The notes under the pieces were generated by a model. It was not told the DNA's origin and did not search any database. It saw nothing but the letters and a program-made list of their open reading frames with translations. DNA of 13,623 bases from Desulfobacterales bacterium (GTDB lineage: Bacteria; Desulfobacterota; Desulfobacteria; Desulfobacterales; Desulfosalsimonadaceae). A program made the position numbers and the translations under genes. The DNA is taken from assembly GCA_007135795.1 (NCBI GenBank), contig SLIE01000353.1, positions 1-13,623 on the forward strand, in the 5' to 3' direction. The number at the start of each line of letters is the position of its first letter. Position 1 is the first letter of the stretch. Positions 1 through 4,006 of this stretch are shown here, piece by piece.

Positions 1-90
1 CAAACCCCGAATCGCAGGGTTGTGGCTTACCCAATGTAAAGGATTTTGAGCCTCTAAACGATATGAGACCGAGCATACGGGAAAATTATC

Positions 91-106
91 CCCGGTGCGC
101 ACCGGG
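91..106 (-). terminator. Possible terminator hairpin after the small leftward gene
   Basis: Bases 91-106 form a perfect 16-bp palindrome, CCCGGTGCGCACCGGG. It lies about 40 bases past the stop codon of the leftward gene at 147-413. Read leftward, the hairpin is followed by GATAATTTT, a modest T-rich tract. A factor-independent terminator is plausible, but the T run is interrupted and a protein-binding palindrome cannot be excluded. Confidence 0.4.
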
Positions 107-146
107 ACTCGGGGCCTTCAACCCTTGTTCAGGCCTCCGCGCTTTT

Positions 147-413
147 TCAATTAATACACTGGACCACGGCGATCGCGTTGCCATCGCTGTCTTTTGCAAG
201 AATAATACAGTTAACTTCCTTGTTCTTCAATTTTTCTATATTGCTTACGTTCAATATCCCGGAAGACAATTCCGGGTCATTGACCCCGGCAATCCGGATA
301 AACGCACAATCTTTGTAATTATGTTCATTGAATTTTCCAGTATCGAGTATTTTGATCTCCAATATATCCTTTCCCAGGATATTCTTGACAACCCCATGAA
401 GACTGTCTTGCAT
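147..413 (-). CDS. Small protein, possible degenerate SNase-like OB fold
   Basis: This gene encodes 88 residues with no signal peptide or membrane segment. I do not recognise a named family. By eye, the order of motifs resembles a staphylococcal-nuclease-like barrel: an opening GVV-x-NILGKD strand pair, then FIRIAGVNDPE (compare the SNase RLLLVDTPE region), then KNKEVNCIILAKDSDGNAIAVV (compare the K-x-V...D-x-YGR segment). If that alignment is right, the second catalytic Asp is Asn and the catalytic Arg of the DxYGR segment is Asn, so the fold would be non-nucleolytic. The ATG at 411-413 is preceded by a strong AGGGGGG ribosome site. That site lies in the loop of a small hairpin with GCTTC/GAAGC arms (417-437). 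The gene sits about 125 bases downstream of a predicted sigma-54 promoter and is divergent from a sigma-54 regulator, so it is the likely target of that regulator. The coding call is fairly secure; the fold is a weak inference. Confidence 0.6.
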   Translation of the reverse strand: MQDSLHGVVKNILGKDILEIKILDTGKFNEHNYKDCAFIRIAGVNDPELSSGILNVSNIEKLKNKEVNCIILAKDSDGNAIAVVQCIN

Positions 414-548
414 TGAGCTTCCCCCCTTTATTGAAGCCCCTGTTACATACCGGAACCTCGCTCGTTTAGAGTTATTGGCATTTCTTGAATTCAGAAGAAA
501 TCACTGGATGATCAGGCTTTTGCCTTTTTCAGTAACCACCTTTACCAA

Positions 549-564
549 AGCAACAAACATGCCA
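549..564 (-). promoter_or_regulatory. Predicted sigma-54 (-24/-12) promoter
   Basis: Read leftward from 564, the sequence is TGGCATGTTTGTTGCT. It fits the sigma-54 consensus TGGCAYG-N4-TTGCW, with GG and GC exactly 12 bases apart. Taking the C at 550 as -12 puts the start of transcription near 538, giving a leader of about 125 bases before the ATG at 413. The match is direct; function is inferred from the match and from the IHF and enhancer-like sites upstream. Confidence 0.7.
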
Positions 565-588
565 TCTTTTCTATTCTTTTTTATTTTT

Positions 589-601
589 TAAATAATTGAT
601 A
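589..601 (-). promoter_or_regulatory. Predicted IHF site between enhancer and sigma-54 promoter
   Basis: Read leftward, bases 601-589 are TATCAATTATTTA, a full match to the IHF consensus WATCAANNNNTTR, inside a very AT-rich stretch (565-640). It lies at about -51 to -63 from the predicted start at 538, between the -24/-12 promoter and the enhancer-like palindromes. This is where IHF usually bends DNA at sigma-54 promoters. A chance match in AT-rich DNA is possible. Confidence 0.5.
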
Positions 602-643
602 TAACTTACTATTTTATTAAACTTAGATTATTTATAGAATTAC

Positions 644-660
644 TGTAACAATTTGTTACA
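644..660. promoter_or_regulatory. Enhancer-like palindrome, copy 1 (TGTAAC-N5-GTTACA)
   Basis: The sequence TGTAACAATTTGTTACA is a perfect palindrome with 6-bp arms in TGTAAC-N5-GTTACA form (seven paired bases around a 3-base centre). It lies at about -106 to -122 from the predicted leftward sigma-54 start. A second copy with the same architecture begins 34 bp away at 678. Tandem sites of this kind are typical enhancers for NtrC-type activators. Confidence 0.6.
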
Positions 661-677
661 ATACTATCTTCCACCGG

Positions 678-694
678 TGTAACCAAACGTTACG
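678..694. promoter_or_regulatory. Enhancer-like palindrome, copy 2 (TGTAAC-N5-GTTACG)
   Basis: The sequence TGTAACCAAACGTTACG repeats the half-sites of the 644-660 site with a different 5-base spacer, so the arms rather than the centre are conserved. It lies at about -140 to -156 from the leftward sigma-54 start and 39 bp before the first ATG of the regulator gene. A regulator bound here could both activate the leftward gene and affect its own expression. Confidence 0.6.
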
Positions 695-733
695 ACGGGT
701 TAAAAAGTAAGCAAATACCCAATTTCCTTAGAC

Positions 734-2113
734 ATGATCGATATTTTCTGTTATCTCAAAGCTATGGAAAAACCAAAAATACTACTCATCGACAATAACG
801 AAATCTTCCTGGAATTGTTCTGCTGCCTCCCGGAAGCAAATTTTTTCGAAGTCATTCCGTTTAACTCCGCTAAAAAGGCCTTGGATTATTTAAGCAAGAA
901 CAAGGCGGATGTGGTTATCTCGGATAATCAGATGCCAAAGATGTCCGGAACAGAACTGCTTCTGCAAATCCAGGACATGCATCCGGATATTCCCTTCATC
1001 CTGATTACTGCATACGGTTCGTCGGAACAGGCAATTGCTGCGATAAAACAAGGGGCATTTCATTATTTTGAAAAACCGATCGACGATAAGCTCGAGCTTT
1101 TCTGGTCAACAATCCGGGAAGCCGTGGACAAACGCGGAATGCTGGGAGAAATCGAAGCCCTTCGCAAAGAAAAGGCACTCCAATCGAAACGGCTAACATC
1201 CATCATCGGCAGATCCGATCGGATAACACAAGTACGGGAATCGATCGCAGTGGTTGCCGAACTCAAGGTCACCGTCCTGATCTACGGTGAAACCGGAACC
1301 GGGAAAGAACTTGTGGCAAGAGCCGTTCATGATCAAAGCGGAAGGCAGAACAAGGGGTTTTTTGCCATCAATTGCTCTGAGCTTTCACTCGGTGTAATGG
1401 AGAGCGAGTTGTTCGGACATGAAAAAGGTTCATTTACCGGTGCCGTTGCCCGGAGAAAAGGACTTTTTGAAATTGCAGACAAAGGAACTCTGTTTCTTGA
1501 TGAAATAAGCAATGCACCCATGACCCTTCAATCCAAAATGTTGCGTGTTCTTGAAACCCATGAATTCAAACGCGTCGGGGGAGTATCACCCATATATTCT
1601 GATTTTCGAATAATCGCCGCTACCAACACACCGCTAGAAGACGCGGTTACACAGGGACGATTCCGGCAGGATCTTCTTTACCGACTCAACACTTATGTCA
1701 TCGAAACTCCGCCCCTCAGAGATCGAAAAGAAGATATTCCGCTACTTGCCGAATACTATCTCAGACACTTCTCTACTGCTTACCATCGTTACCTTGAAGG
1801 AATATCCGAAAGTGCAATGGACGCACTGATTTCTTACCAGTGGCCGGGTAACGTTCGGGAACTCGTAAATGTGATAGAGCGCGCCGTCATTACCTGCCGG
1901 GAAAGCAAGATTACGACGCGCGACATTCCATTTGCTTCCGAAACCTCCGTAAATCTATCAAGCATGAATCTCAAGCAGATGGAGCAATATGTCATTGGTC
2001 TTGCGTTGAAAAAATCAGGATTCAACAAAACGCGAGCGTCAGAGATGCTGGGTATTGCAAGGAAAACGCTTATTGAAAAAATTCGTAAATACAATATTCA
2101 GGAAGCTGATTAA
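734..2113 (+). CDS. Sigma-54-dependent response regulator (NtrC family)
   Basis: This is a cytoplasmic activator of sigma-54 RNA polymerase, presumed controlled by phosphorylation. The domains are a receiver (about 12-130), an AAA+ domain (about 155-395) and a C-terminal Fis-type helix-turn-helix (about 418-455). Visible residues are phospho-acceptor Asp64, Thr92, Lys114, Walker A GETGTGKE (185-192), the sigma-54 contact loop as GSFTGA (232-237, Ser for the usual Ala), Walker B LFLDEI (254-259) and the GRFRQDLLYRLN arginine-finger segment. The first acidic pocket is DN (20-21) where DD is usual, so one metal ligand is changed. The length of 459 residues is normal. Residues are counted from the ATG at 734; the ATG at 764 is an equally good start, and neither has a clear ribosome site. 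A kinase-like gene follows after 15 bases. The upstream tandem palindromes are its likely binding sites, judged by position only. Confidence 0.93.
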   Translation: MIDIFCYLKAMEKPKILLIDNNEIFLELFCCLPEANFFEVIPFNSAKKALDYLSKNKADVVISDNQMPKMSGTELLLQIQDMHPDIPFILITAYGSSEQAIAAIKQGAFHYFEKPIDDKLELFWSTIREAVDKRGMLGEIEALRKEKALQSKRLTSIIGRSDRITQVRESIAVVAELKVTVLIYGETGTGKELVARAVHDQSGRQNKGFFAINCSELSLGVMESELFGHEKGSFTGAVARRKGLFEIADKGTLFLDEISNAPMTLQSKMLRVLETHEFKRVGGVSPIYSDFRIIAATNTPLEDAVTQGRFRQDLLYRLNTYVIETPPLRDRKEDIPLLAEYYLRHFSTAYHRYLEGISESAMDALISYQWPGNVRELVNVIERAVITCRESKITTRDIPFASETSVNLSSMNLKQMEQYVIGLALKKSGFNKTRASEMLGIARKTLIEKIRKYNIQEAD

Positions 2114-2128: not shown

Positions 2129-3079
2129 ATGAAAACATTTTCTACCGGAAATGTGAATTGGGAACTTGATGTTTTTGCCGTGACGATTGCCGTCGGAACA
2201 ACAGTCCTGTCCAGTGTTATTTTTTATCTGCTTCAGAAGTTCCAATCGGAAATTTATTTATGGTTTATCGCCGGCTCCGCGACCGCATTCATTGCTGCCT
2301 TGGGCGCAGTGGCTGCACTTCGCGTATACACTGCAAAACTTGTATTCCTGCCGCGGAAAAATCACGGTAATTTCGAGGACCAAGAAAAAGAAACAGGCCC
2401 GGATCATCTTCGAAGTCAATTGATACTAACGGGGATCACCAGAAAACTTCACCACGAAACCATAAATTTTTTAAATAATATTGATCTTGTCATTCATGGA
2501 TTAAAAAATGAGACCTTAAGTCCCGGCGGGAGCAGGATACTGCGACTTCTGATGGGAGAAAACGAACGGATAAAAACTTATATCCTGAATTACCGGCAAG
2601 TTTTGAACTTTGCCGTCATCAAGGGAGAGAGCCGCCATATTGAACGTATAGTAAAGGACGTGTTTTTAAAATGGCGGCAAATAGCAGGTAAACCGGAGAT
2701 AAAGGCGCGTTTCAACTGGCAGTCACACCCGGATACGGTCCATATGAACACGCTTCTGATTAAAGAAGCGTTTTCTATCCTATTTGATTTTATGGCGTGT
2801 TCCCAGACAAACGGACAAGTTTTTGAAATAGATGGAAGATGTGAAGAAAACCAAACAACAGTTGCAATATCACTCCCGGATACCGGGATGATGGATCTGG
2901 AAAATACAGATATGTTCGAACCATTTACTATCCGAAGCGAAGAAAATATGACCATATCAAAGCTGTTTATCGCCAGGACAATTATCGAGGCCCACGGGGG
3001 AAAGATTGGCCTTAGGGAAGACAGAGGTAGAAAACTGACTTTTGAGGTATCCTTCCCTCTTTTTCTTGAGAAGGGATAA
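2129..3079 (+). CDS. Membrane histidine-kinase-like protein with degenerate ATPase domain
   Basis: This is the probable sensor partner of the upstream response regulator. It has two hydrophobic segments (about 14-35 and 43-66) with almost no periplasmic loop between them, so it likely senses within the membrane or cytoplasm. An H-box-like motif follows, HHETINF, with His109, Glu110 and Asn113. The C-terminal domain keeps parts of the HATPase fold: DTG (251-253), FEPF (263-266) and IIEAHGGKI (285-293). The nucleotide-binding features look lost. The N-box region (213-225) has no conserved Asn, the second G1 glycine is Met255, and the glycine-rich G2 segment is replaced by MTISKLF (274-280). It may be a pseudokinase, phosphatase or scaffold; autokinase activity is doubtful. 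The ATG follows a GGGAAG ribosome site, and the gene lies 15 bases after the regulator in one operon that ends at the hairpin at 3120-3149. Confidence 0.85.
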   Translation: MKTFSTGNVNWELDVFAVTIAVGTTVLSSVIFYLLQKFQSEIYLWFIAGSATAFIAALGAVAALRVYTAKLVFLPRKNHGNFEDQEKETGPDHLRSQLILTGITRKLHHETINFLNNIDLVIHGLKNETLSPGGSRILRLLMGENERIKTYILNYRQVLNFAVIKGESRHIERIVKDVFLKWRQIAGKPEIKARFNWQSHPDTVHMNTLLIKEAFSILFDFMACSQTNGQVFEIDGRCEENQTTVAISLPDTGMMDLENTDMFEPFTIRSEENMTISKLFIARTIIEAHGGKIGLREDRGRKLTFEVSFPLFLEKG

Positions 3080-3165: not shown

Positions 3166-3366
3166 TTATAATACAGTCACGTTGACTGCAGCTGGACCTT
3201 TTTGACCTTGTTCAACTTCAAAACTAACTTTGTCGCCCTCATTCAATGATTTAAAACCATTTGAATTAATAGCAGAAAAATGAACGAACACGTCTGGGCC
3301 ATCCTCTTGCTCGATAAAACCAAACCCCTTGCTGTCATTAAACCATTTTACTGTTCCGTTTTTCAT
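3166..3366 (-). CDS. Cold-shock domain protein, copy 1
   Basis: This gene encodes 66 residues, a single cold-shock OB fold that binds single-stranded RNA and DNA and acts as an RNA chaperone. The nucleic-acid motifs are RNP1 KGFGFIEQ (13-20) and RNP2 VFVHF (26-30), with the aromatic pair Trp8 and Phe9. The ATG at 3364-3366 is chosen because AGGAGG lies 10 bases before it; an in-frame TTG three codons upstream would leave only one base of spacing. It differs from the paralogue at 3688 in only four residues (Asp22, Asn36, Ser48, Leu66). It has its own leader of about 110 bases and a terminator, so it is probably a single-gene unit. The name cspA or cspD cannot be assigned from sequence alone. 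Confidence 0.95.
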
Positions 3367-3480
3367 CTGTGCCAAACCTCCTTTCTCATAATGTTCTAAT
3401 GGTCTCTAACTGGAAGTAGCCACTTCGAAAAACGGATCCTTCCTTAAGCGAAACCAACCCGCCAAACAATCCGGGCATTT
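3367..3480 (-). promoter_or_regulatory. Conserved 5' leader of cold-shock gene 1
   Basis: The leader is about 110 bases and aligns along most of its length with the leader of the second cold-shock gene. The best block is 3412-3438, which matches 3931-3957 at 26 of 27 positions although it is non-coding. In the RNA the block contains GAAGUGGCUACUUC, able to form a short hairpin with a GGCU loop. A second shared block is the GAGAAAGGAGG ribosome site. Long structured leaders control cold-shock mRNAs in other bacteria; a thermosensing role here is inferred. Confidence 0.55.
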
Positions 3481-3687: not shown

Positions 3688-3888
3688 TTAAGCGACTGTT
3701 ACATTTACGGCAGCGGGTCCTTTTTGCCCTTGCTCTACTTCAAAATTCACCTTGTCGCCTTCATTCAACGATTTAAATCCACTTGAATTGATAGCGGAAA
3801 AATGAACGAATACGTCTGGCCCGCCTTCCTGCTCTATAAAACCAAACCCTTTGCTGTCGTTGAACCATTTAACTGTTCCGTTTTTCAT
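3688..3888 (-). CDS. Cold-shock domain protein, copy 2
   Basis: This 66-residue paralogue of the neighbouring cold-shock gene has identical RNP1 and RNP2 motifs and differs by Gly22, Ser36, Asn48 and Ala66. Many codons differ silently from copy 1, so the duplication is old and the protein has been held nearly constant. The ATG at 3886-3888 is chosen because AGGAGG lies 9 bases upstream; the in-frame TTG at 3897 is too close to the ribosome site. With its own conserved leader and terminator it is a complete duplicated unit. Expected role: a cytoplasmic RNA chaperone, possibly with different temperature or growth control from its twin. Confidence 0.95.
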
Positions 3889-4006
3889 TGCGTACAACCT
3901 CCTTTCTCAAATTTTCTCATGGTCTCAAACGGAAGTAGCCACTTTGAAAAACGGATCTTCCCCCAGCGAAACCGACCCGTCAATCAAGCCCGAGCCTTTA
4001 TAGATT
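3889..4006 (-). promoter_or_regulatory. Conserved 5' leader of cold-shock gene 2
   Basis: This matches the leader of the first cold-shock gene, most strongly at 3931-3957, with further shared blocks at the ribosome site, at GGTCTC and at AGCGAAACC (plus-strand reading). The similarity ends near 4006, where an AT-rich stretch begins. That stretch contains TTGCAT (4040-4035) and TATCTT (4018-4013) spaced by 16 bases, read leftward, a weak promoter candidate. Confidence 0.55.

Follow-up and report, generated by a model that had tools for sequence, protein, structure and literature searches.

Which gene does the intergenic gap between a small 88-residue gene and a divergent NtrC-type response regulator control, and what might the product of that gene do? 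The gap, 350 bp in length and 67% A+T, lies in the window, by which we mean the whole 13,623-nucleotide stretch analyzed here (contig G000:C121), and the genome to which it belongs is 2.9 Mb in size and 82% complete. An earlier note, made from the letters of the window, had recognized in the gap two palindromes, a site for IHF, and a sigma-54 promoter, and had proposed a self-contained module with the small gene as its output. The control-region architecture is of a known, classical kind. What appears to be new is the pairing of this regulator with this output, the identity of the output protein, the apparent exchange of the output gene beneath a retained control region, and the decay of the partner kinase. 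The reading that we prefer, with a probability of around 85%, is that the gap serves as a sigma-54 control region dedicated to a single gene, that at 147-413, which the adjacent regulator drives through it. The features on which the argument turns are as follows.

694-678, no strand assigned: distal candidate enhancer palindrome CGTAACGTTTGGTTACA (leftward reading), at -140 to -156 if +1 is 538
660-644, no strand assigned: proximal candidate enhancer palindrome TGTAACAAATTGTTACA (leftward reading), at -106 to -122 if +1 is 538
601-589, minus strand: IHF consensus TATCAATTATTTA (WATCAANNNNTTR), at -51 to -63 if +1 is 538
564-549, minus strand: -24/-12 (sigma-54) promoter TGGCATGTTTGTTGCT, TGGCATG-N4-TTGCT, with a predicted +1 near 538
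414-538, minus strand: predicted 5' untranslated leader of ~125 nt, placed from the promoter position
147-413, minus strand: small output gene of 88 aa, a shortened SNase-like (OB-fold) protein, from the open reading frame and its orthologues
90-107, minus strand: terminator-like hairpin downstream of the small gene, 7 pairs then ATAATTTT
727-734, plus strand: CTTAGACA block beside the regulator start, the same 8-mer in 5/5 genus loci holding that start
764-2113, plus strand: NtrC-type response regulator, the proposed activator, with Pfam PF00072, PF00158, and PF02954 above cut-off
2129-3079, plus strand: degenerate histidine kinase, with a hydrophobic N-terminal part and HATPase_c below cut-off

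In essence, dimers of the regulator would occupy both GTWAC-N5-GTWAC palindromes, which lie 80 and 114 bp above the promoter, and an IHF-type protein would bend the DNA between these and the promoter. The AAA+ ring of the regulator would then remodel the RNA polymerase-sigma-54 complex, giving leftward transcription of 147-413, with phosphorylation as the switch that turns the regulator on. We infer that the adjacent regulator is the binder, that IHF binds, and that switching is by phosphorylation.

The small gene was found in seven of the 60 genomes searched, these being its own, the other members of the genus (5/5), and one member of the sister genus (G007). Regulator and small gene are seen together in five of these seven loci, the contigs of G003 and G005 stopping before or within the regulator, and the alignments of regulator and kinase are drawn from the five loci with those genes on the contig. 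The order small gene, regulator, kinase, cold-shock gene, and S1 gene is shared by G001, G002, and G004; G007 departs from it in having a further gene inserted between promoter and small gene, and no S1 gene was detected on the contig examined. Past the module, the window carries two near-identical cold-shock genes in tandem (3166-3375 and 3688-3897, minus strand). Orthologues of the regulator, 64-75% identical, occur in 8 of 35 other genomes of the family (E ≤ 1e-130).

The palindromes, the IHF consensus, and the promoter are all where the earlier note had put them, at -106 to -156, -51 to -63, and -24/-12 from a +1 at 538. At -24/-12, the promoter has GG-N10-GC in a TGGCAYG/TTGCW context. 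Our chance model was a set of 20,000 dinucleotide shuffles of the 350-bp gap, of which 0.005% contained TGGCAYG-N4-TTGC on either strand, and TGGCATG-N4-TTGC is kept in all seven small-gene loci. The exact TGGCAYG-N4-TTGC string occurs at 10 places in the window's own genome, the window promoter among them. The RpoN domain PF04552 was detected in 4/6 genus genomes, own included, and missed in G003 (83% complete) and G005 (61% complete).

The IHF site, described previously as a perfect consensus match, is indeed one. The match is weak by itself, since the consensus arises on either strand in 4.5% of the shuffles, and it gains weight only because its place is constant among relatives: the best IHF-like match in the 75 bp searched above the promoter lies 36-38 bp above it in 7/7 small-gene loci, with 0, 1, 2, 0, 0, 1, and 1 mismatches (exact in 3/7). 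An HU/IHF-family protein is encoded in 6/6 genus genomes. The IHF-like protein of the window's own genome, which was tested, is nearest to IHF-beta yet falls below the NCBI IHF cut-offs, a point against our reading.

Both palindromes are present, with the full TGTAAC-N5-GTTACA only at the proximal site; the distal site is one base short, reading CGTAAC-N5-GTTACA leftward and TGTAAC-N5-GTTACG rightward. None of the 20,000 shuffles held two GTWAC-N5-GTWAC sites, and 0.065% held one or more. A comparison with related genomes, proposed in the earlier note as a check, finds the three elements kept at fixed spacing in 7/7 small-gene loci, so that the classical order of enhancer, bend, and promoter recognized there survives. 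Throughout, the distance from the promoter to the end of the site is 80-82 bp for the proximal and 113-115 bp for the distal palindrome, with 0-1 mismatch each: the window, G002, G004, and G005 match exactly at both, and there is one mismatch in the proximal site of G007 and in the distal site of G001 and G003. The small gene is under purifying selection (dN/dS 0.07-0.17 in 8/15 computable pairs), and its synonymous sites are near saturation (pS 0.77-0.87, window versus the five others compared). Because of this near-saturation, the conservation of the elements speaks of selection and not of recent copying, among relatives that are not independent of one another.

Between promoter and start codon, the length of the leader is not conserved and varies widely among relatives, and no Rfam family in the window scores above its gathering score. 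The G005 leader, from promoter to small gene (L021), holds repeat-like insertions around GTAAAAAGTC or GTGAAAAGTC, and stretches resembling them can be seen by eye in the G002, G030, and G013 gaps. At the other end, the 800 bp scanned contain two terminator-like hairpins versus 0.5 (sd 0.8) in shuffles. The gene downstream is convergent in 6/6 relatives examined and, together with the hairpin, this makes the small gene, as it appears, the sole gene of its predicted transcript.

The regulator is made up of a receiver, a sigma-54 AAA+ domain, and a Fis-type HTH. Its near-canonical sigma-54 contact loop, remarked on earlier, is confirmed as GSFTGA in the window, G001, and G002, and reads GAFTGA in G004 and G007. 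The canonical acidic pair of receivers is DD; here it is D-N in all five aligned orthologues, which also keep the Asp of the SDNQMP/SDVQMP motif (5/5). A start at 764 is more likely than one at 734, given a Met at the same place in the aligned orthologues.

The regulator starts 70-120 bp downstream of the sites that we assign to the leftward promoter, and these might mainly control the regulator's own gene, by activation or repression, and serve the leftward promoter secondarily. The CTTAGACA block by that start, kept in 5/5 genus loci and absent in G007, is possibly part of a promoter of the regulator gene and would suit such autoregulation. We nevertheless judge it unlikely: the spacing of the sites is fixed relative to the -24/-12 element, whereas the distance to the regulator start varies (173, 180, 199, 199, and 284 bp in the five loci with both genes), and a scan of both strands 40-200 bp beyond the sites listed no -24/-12-like match directed toward the regulator in these loci.

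The distribution of the motif bears on which protein binds it. There are three exact TGTAAC-N5-GTTAC places in the window's own genome, the gap accounting for two, and the six genus genomes contain GTWAC-N5-GTWACA at 14 distinct places (overlapping strand matches counted once), 10 of them inside the gap. The pairing of regulator and sites, which had been proposed from their positions, thus gains backing beyond position from the genome search that the earlier note had suggested, and the simplest reading of these counts is that the regulator looks dedicated to one promoter. The motif is no commoner than a reversed control genome-wide (21 versus 33 strand matches for exact GTWAC-N5-GTWACA in the six genomes, and 29 versus 50 at one mismatch in the window's own), so that the case for specificity rests on clustering and conservation in the gap.

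Of the four places outside the gap (G000:C318, G003:C300, G002:C91, and G002:C156), only G003:C300 sits above a clear -24/-12 match. The palindrome there (L064:1400, 1502-1516) precedes a universal-stress-type gene, named by eye, and lies 101 bp above its TGGCATGCAAGTTGCT. Orthologues of that gene occur in 4/6 genomes: the one in G002 lacks the site but has a TGGCAT..TTGC element, and at those in G000 and G001 neither the site nor a -24/-12-like element was found. The gene was rejected as a regulon member on the grounds that the site was not found at these three orthologues. The third palindrome of the window's own genome, C318:7069, lies between sat-like and radical-SAM-like genes (names by eye) with no -24/-12 match nearby, and the two G002 places have no convincing promoter.

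A promoter of this type could be used by other sigma-54 activators, which counts against our reading, and the sites themselves might be bound by another regulator, be it a sigma-54 activator encoded elsewhere, a TyrR/GcsR-like protein, or a PhoB-like protein, with the adjacent regulator acting elsewhere. Similar sites are on record: passages of PMC4894688 give TyrR boxes as TGTAAA-N6-TTTACA and GcsR sites as TGTAACG-N4-CGTTCCG, and a predicted Desulfovibrio PhoB site, AGGTTACAGCATAGTTAC, in a passage of PMC6456213, contains GTTAC-N6-GTTAC. The four outside places, with the G003 site above its strong -24/-12 match, also lean this way. We think such a binder quite improbable, however, because the sites and the regulator gene co-occur in 5/5 small-gene loci showing both, 10 of the 14 motif places fall in the gap, the spacer is N5 and neither N4 nor N6, and no counterpart of the G003 site turned up above a -24/-12-like match in the G002, G000, and G001 orthologues.

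If the adjacent regulator drives the small gene, as we prefer to think, the signal that switches it need not arise in the kinase beside it. The kinase-like protein is fast-evolving, its orthologues being 27-38% identical to the window protein, but the phospho-acceptor His-Glu motif is invariant in 5/5. The G2 box (GLGL) has been lost in 4/4 genus members examined, in which the N and G1 boxes are also lost, reduced, or doubtful, the window keeping D-T-G of G1. The sister-genus kinase of G007, on the other hand, has all ATP-binding boxes, a HAMP domain, and a strong HATPase_c (L057:1911-2891, L061:2529-3248, and L062:2546-3250 were compared with L060:1084-2166 of G007). The proteins of G001 and G002 are short and without N-terminal hydrophobic stretches. 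The DHp-CA fold is preserved in a model of the window kinase (mean pLDDT 67). The 50 fold matches listed for it include ordinary kinases and, at rank 23, DivL, but neither Spo0B nor ChpT. With its ATP-binding motifs gone but its phospho-histidine kept, the kinase-like protein probably acts as a phosphotransferase or phosphatase, receiving phosphate from another kinase, and the source of phosphate may thus lie elsewhere. This modifies the module proposed in the earlier note: its single output gene stands, but "self-contained" goes too far for a locus whose adjacent kinase is without ATP-binding motifs in 4/4 genus members.

The output had been described as an uncharacterised protein of 88 residues. 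The length holds, and the protein can now be placed: it is very probably an SNase-derived, inactive OB-type domain. The window protein matches no Pfam or NCBIfam family and falls below the Pfam SNase threshold by itself. The colinear motifs V..V.DGD, R..GI..PE, and D..G...A.V, first noticed by eye, match staphylococcal nuclease. When a six-protein alignment was compared by hhalign with 19 SNase domains from relatives, the probability was 92.1 and the score 41 (87.5 and 38 in global mode), versus a best score of 21 among 200 column shuffles; cold-shock, HU, and receiver profiles gave probabilities under 1%. The SNase profile used 19 of 23 matches, the four dropped being L132 and L137, each with an internal stop, the partial L136, and L142, which fell below the cut-off. 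With distant relatives added (alignment A4, 10 rows), the probability rose to 97.9; leaving out G515, the only row to reach the Pfam SNase cut-off by itself, gave 97.2. Alignment A4 leaves out the G005 and G002 proteins, the G627 match C111:4568 (one of five), one further G627 copy found by eye, and a receiver-fused domain. A profile search with alignment A1 returned only a weak match to a GTP-binding protein, and a single-sequence search of the PDB with the G515 relative found no SNase chain. The AlphaFold model of the small protein has a pLDDT of 44 and is not usable, and its fold search gave no significant match; the SNase link rests on sequence profiles, the structural model being too poor to confirm the fold.

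The catalytic residues of SNase are D21, R35, D40, E43, and R87. The corresponding residues of the window protein are D, R, N, E, and N. In the five rows of alignment A4 from the genus and G007, the D40 position is N and the R87 position is N or M, and the small protein stops short of the SNase C-terminal helices. That the system turns on a working nuclease is accordingly hard to credit, although the protein belongs by profile to the SNase superfamily and the G515 relative keeps all five motif residues and passes Pfam SNase (31 bits versus a cut-off of 21). With catalytic residues lost, it is more likely that the small protein binds nucleic acid or a signaling partner than that it cuts.

Beyond the genus and its sister, a phylum-wide search of 395 genomes found relatives of the small protein in three: its own, G515, and G627. 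The proposal that the small gene is confined to its own family (7/389 order genomes) was dropped after the last two were found. In G515 (L148:368-1143), the setting is a different one: a 90-aa SNase-like gene adjoins a ThsB-type TIR gene (Pfam PF08937), and this may possibly be a defence locus. Tandem SNase-like genes are found at two places in G627 (L150:2072-5556 and L149:6338-9504). On contig C111, a PAS-type histidine kinase, a sigma-54 response regulator, and a receiver protein are followed by three small genes, and the C-terminal part of that receiver protein resembles the small protein by eye, Pfam detecting the receiver alone. On contig C93, a kinase-sigma-54 regulator pair is followed by three small genes, one recognized only by eye. 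Upstream of these arrays are -24-like elements with TTGT for TTGC (by eye, and weak). Taken with the present locus, the two G627 sigma-54 loci and the apparent receiver fusion suggest, from few genomes, that the SNase-like domain works inside two-component pathways. Our best guess is that the small protein would do feedback or adaptor work in the same signaling pathway, in view of this distant apparent fusion and of a receiver gene that stands behind a similar promoter elsewhere, to which we now turn.

That the -24/-12 match and palindromes arose by chance is scarcely credible even in a gap of 67% A+T where the IHF consensus alone turns up in 4.5% of shuffles, since two palindromes appeared in 0/20,000 and all seven loci keep the elements and their spacing despite near-saturated synonymous sites. 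The control region has, it seems, a history of its own. Orthologues of the regulator at 64-68% identity are found in G007 and in G034, G030, G018, and G013, the last four being without a detected small gene. In these four, a divergent receiver gene (163-227 aa; Pfam Response_reg above cut-off in 4/4) stands behind a TGGCAT-N5-TTGC element. The receiver proteins resemble each other and the first receiver of a two-receiver gene in G007 (42-61% identity to the G030 protein), and the order in G007 is promoter, two-receiver gene, small gene. Since four relatives have a receiver gene following a similar promoter, the control region probably predates its present output; loss of the receiver gene in the genus would have brought the small gene into first place, a direction of change that we infer. 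Against our reading of the sites, the palindromes are weak in those four relatives, either carrying two mismatches or not found at this position; one G018 site has a single mismatch, and GTWAC half-sites are seen by eye at about the same place in G034, G030, and G018.

Two of the stand-alone receivers, in G034 (L099:6217-6756) and G018 (L101:5902-6390), have by eye an Asn for the phosphorylated Asp (LLNI and LVNM) and may for this reason be non-phosphorylatable. In all four relatives, the regulator is followed by TonB-receptor-like and solute-binding-protein-like genes, recognized by eye. Pfam confirms both in G034, where L099:8574-11741 encodes a TonB-dependent receptor and a solute-binding protein of family 5, a hint that the older module may have served in uptake.

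A broader proposal, which we offer tentatively and think rather less than even odds, is that a shortened, mostly dead SNase-like family has repeatedly been recruited to sigma-54 two-component modules as a feedback or adaptor component, and that here it replaced a receiver gene while the kinase decayed toward a phosphotransferase. We know of no feedback or adaptor signaling role for SNase folds. The small-protein family is apparently undescribed: among the papers listed from the open-licence literature, none concerned an SNase domain tied to a receiver or response regulator, an absence that weighs little.

The locus offers a compact unit of regulator, site, promoter, and gene in uncultured Desulfobacteraceae, and the single apparent target of the regulator makes tests from site to function simple. 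It also suggests that a control region can outlive a swap of the gene that it drives, with G007 as an intermediate in which both genes are present. Finally, it puts a name, that of a dead SNase derivative, to an unannotated small family; because synteny and an apparent fusion tie this family to two-component signaling, the role of the small protein is directly testable.

The most immediate comparison is with Desulfovibrio, where passages of Kazakov et al. 2015 (PMC4641369) describe response-regulator-type activators that adjoin operons with -24/-12 promoters, and three groups of activator motifs whose TGT and ACA half-sites are 9, 11, or 12 bp apart. The window motif, TGT-N11-ACA, is thus of a type already known among those activators. 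The Desulfovibrio regulons of that source differ in belonging to another family of the Desulfobacterota and from the single-gene output found here. By word match, TGTAAC, GTTAC, GTAAC, and TGTTAC are absent from the main text of PMC4641369 and PMC3333781, and the motifs may still be identical. TyrR and GcsR are alike in using tandem palindromes (TGTAAA-N6-TTTACA and TGTAACG-N4-CGTTCCG, in passages of PMC4894688); the window sites differ from these in their N5 spacer (17 bp), and the window regulator in having a receiver and HTH_8 above cut-off.

On the output side, the SNase family (PF00565) shares its colinear motifs with the window protein and admits the distant relative G515 above the Pfam cut-off, but the window protein, with 88 residues, is without the C-terminal helices and has the equivalents of D40 and R87 replaced. 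For the kinase, a passage of PMC5898713 describes PhyT, with Spo0B and ChpT as named precedents, as a degenerate kinase beside a regulator that acts as a phosphotransferase. The likeness to PhyT/PhyP, ChpT, and Spo0B lies in a kinase that adjoins a response regulator, with the acceptor His kept and the ATPase domain degenerate (PMC5898713), and is seen here in the degenerate domain. PhyT is fed by a stand-alone receiver in that account, whereas the genus locus has no stand-alone receiver gene. The pseudokinase DivL, as described in PMC4211667, likewise has a DHp-CA fold without kinase activity; in DivL, however, Tyr550 replaces the His and PAS domains are present, whereas the window kinase keeps its His.
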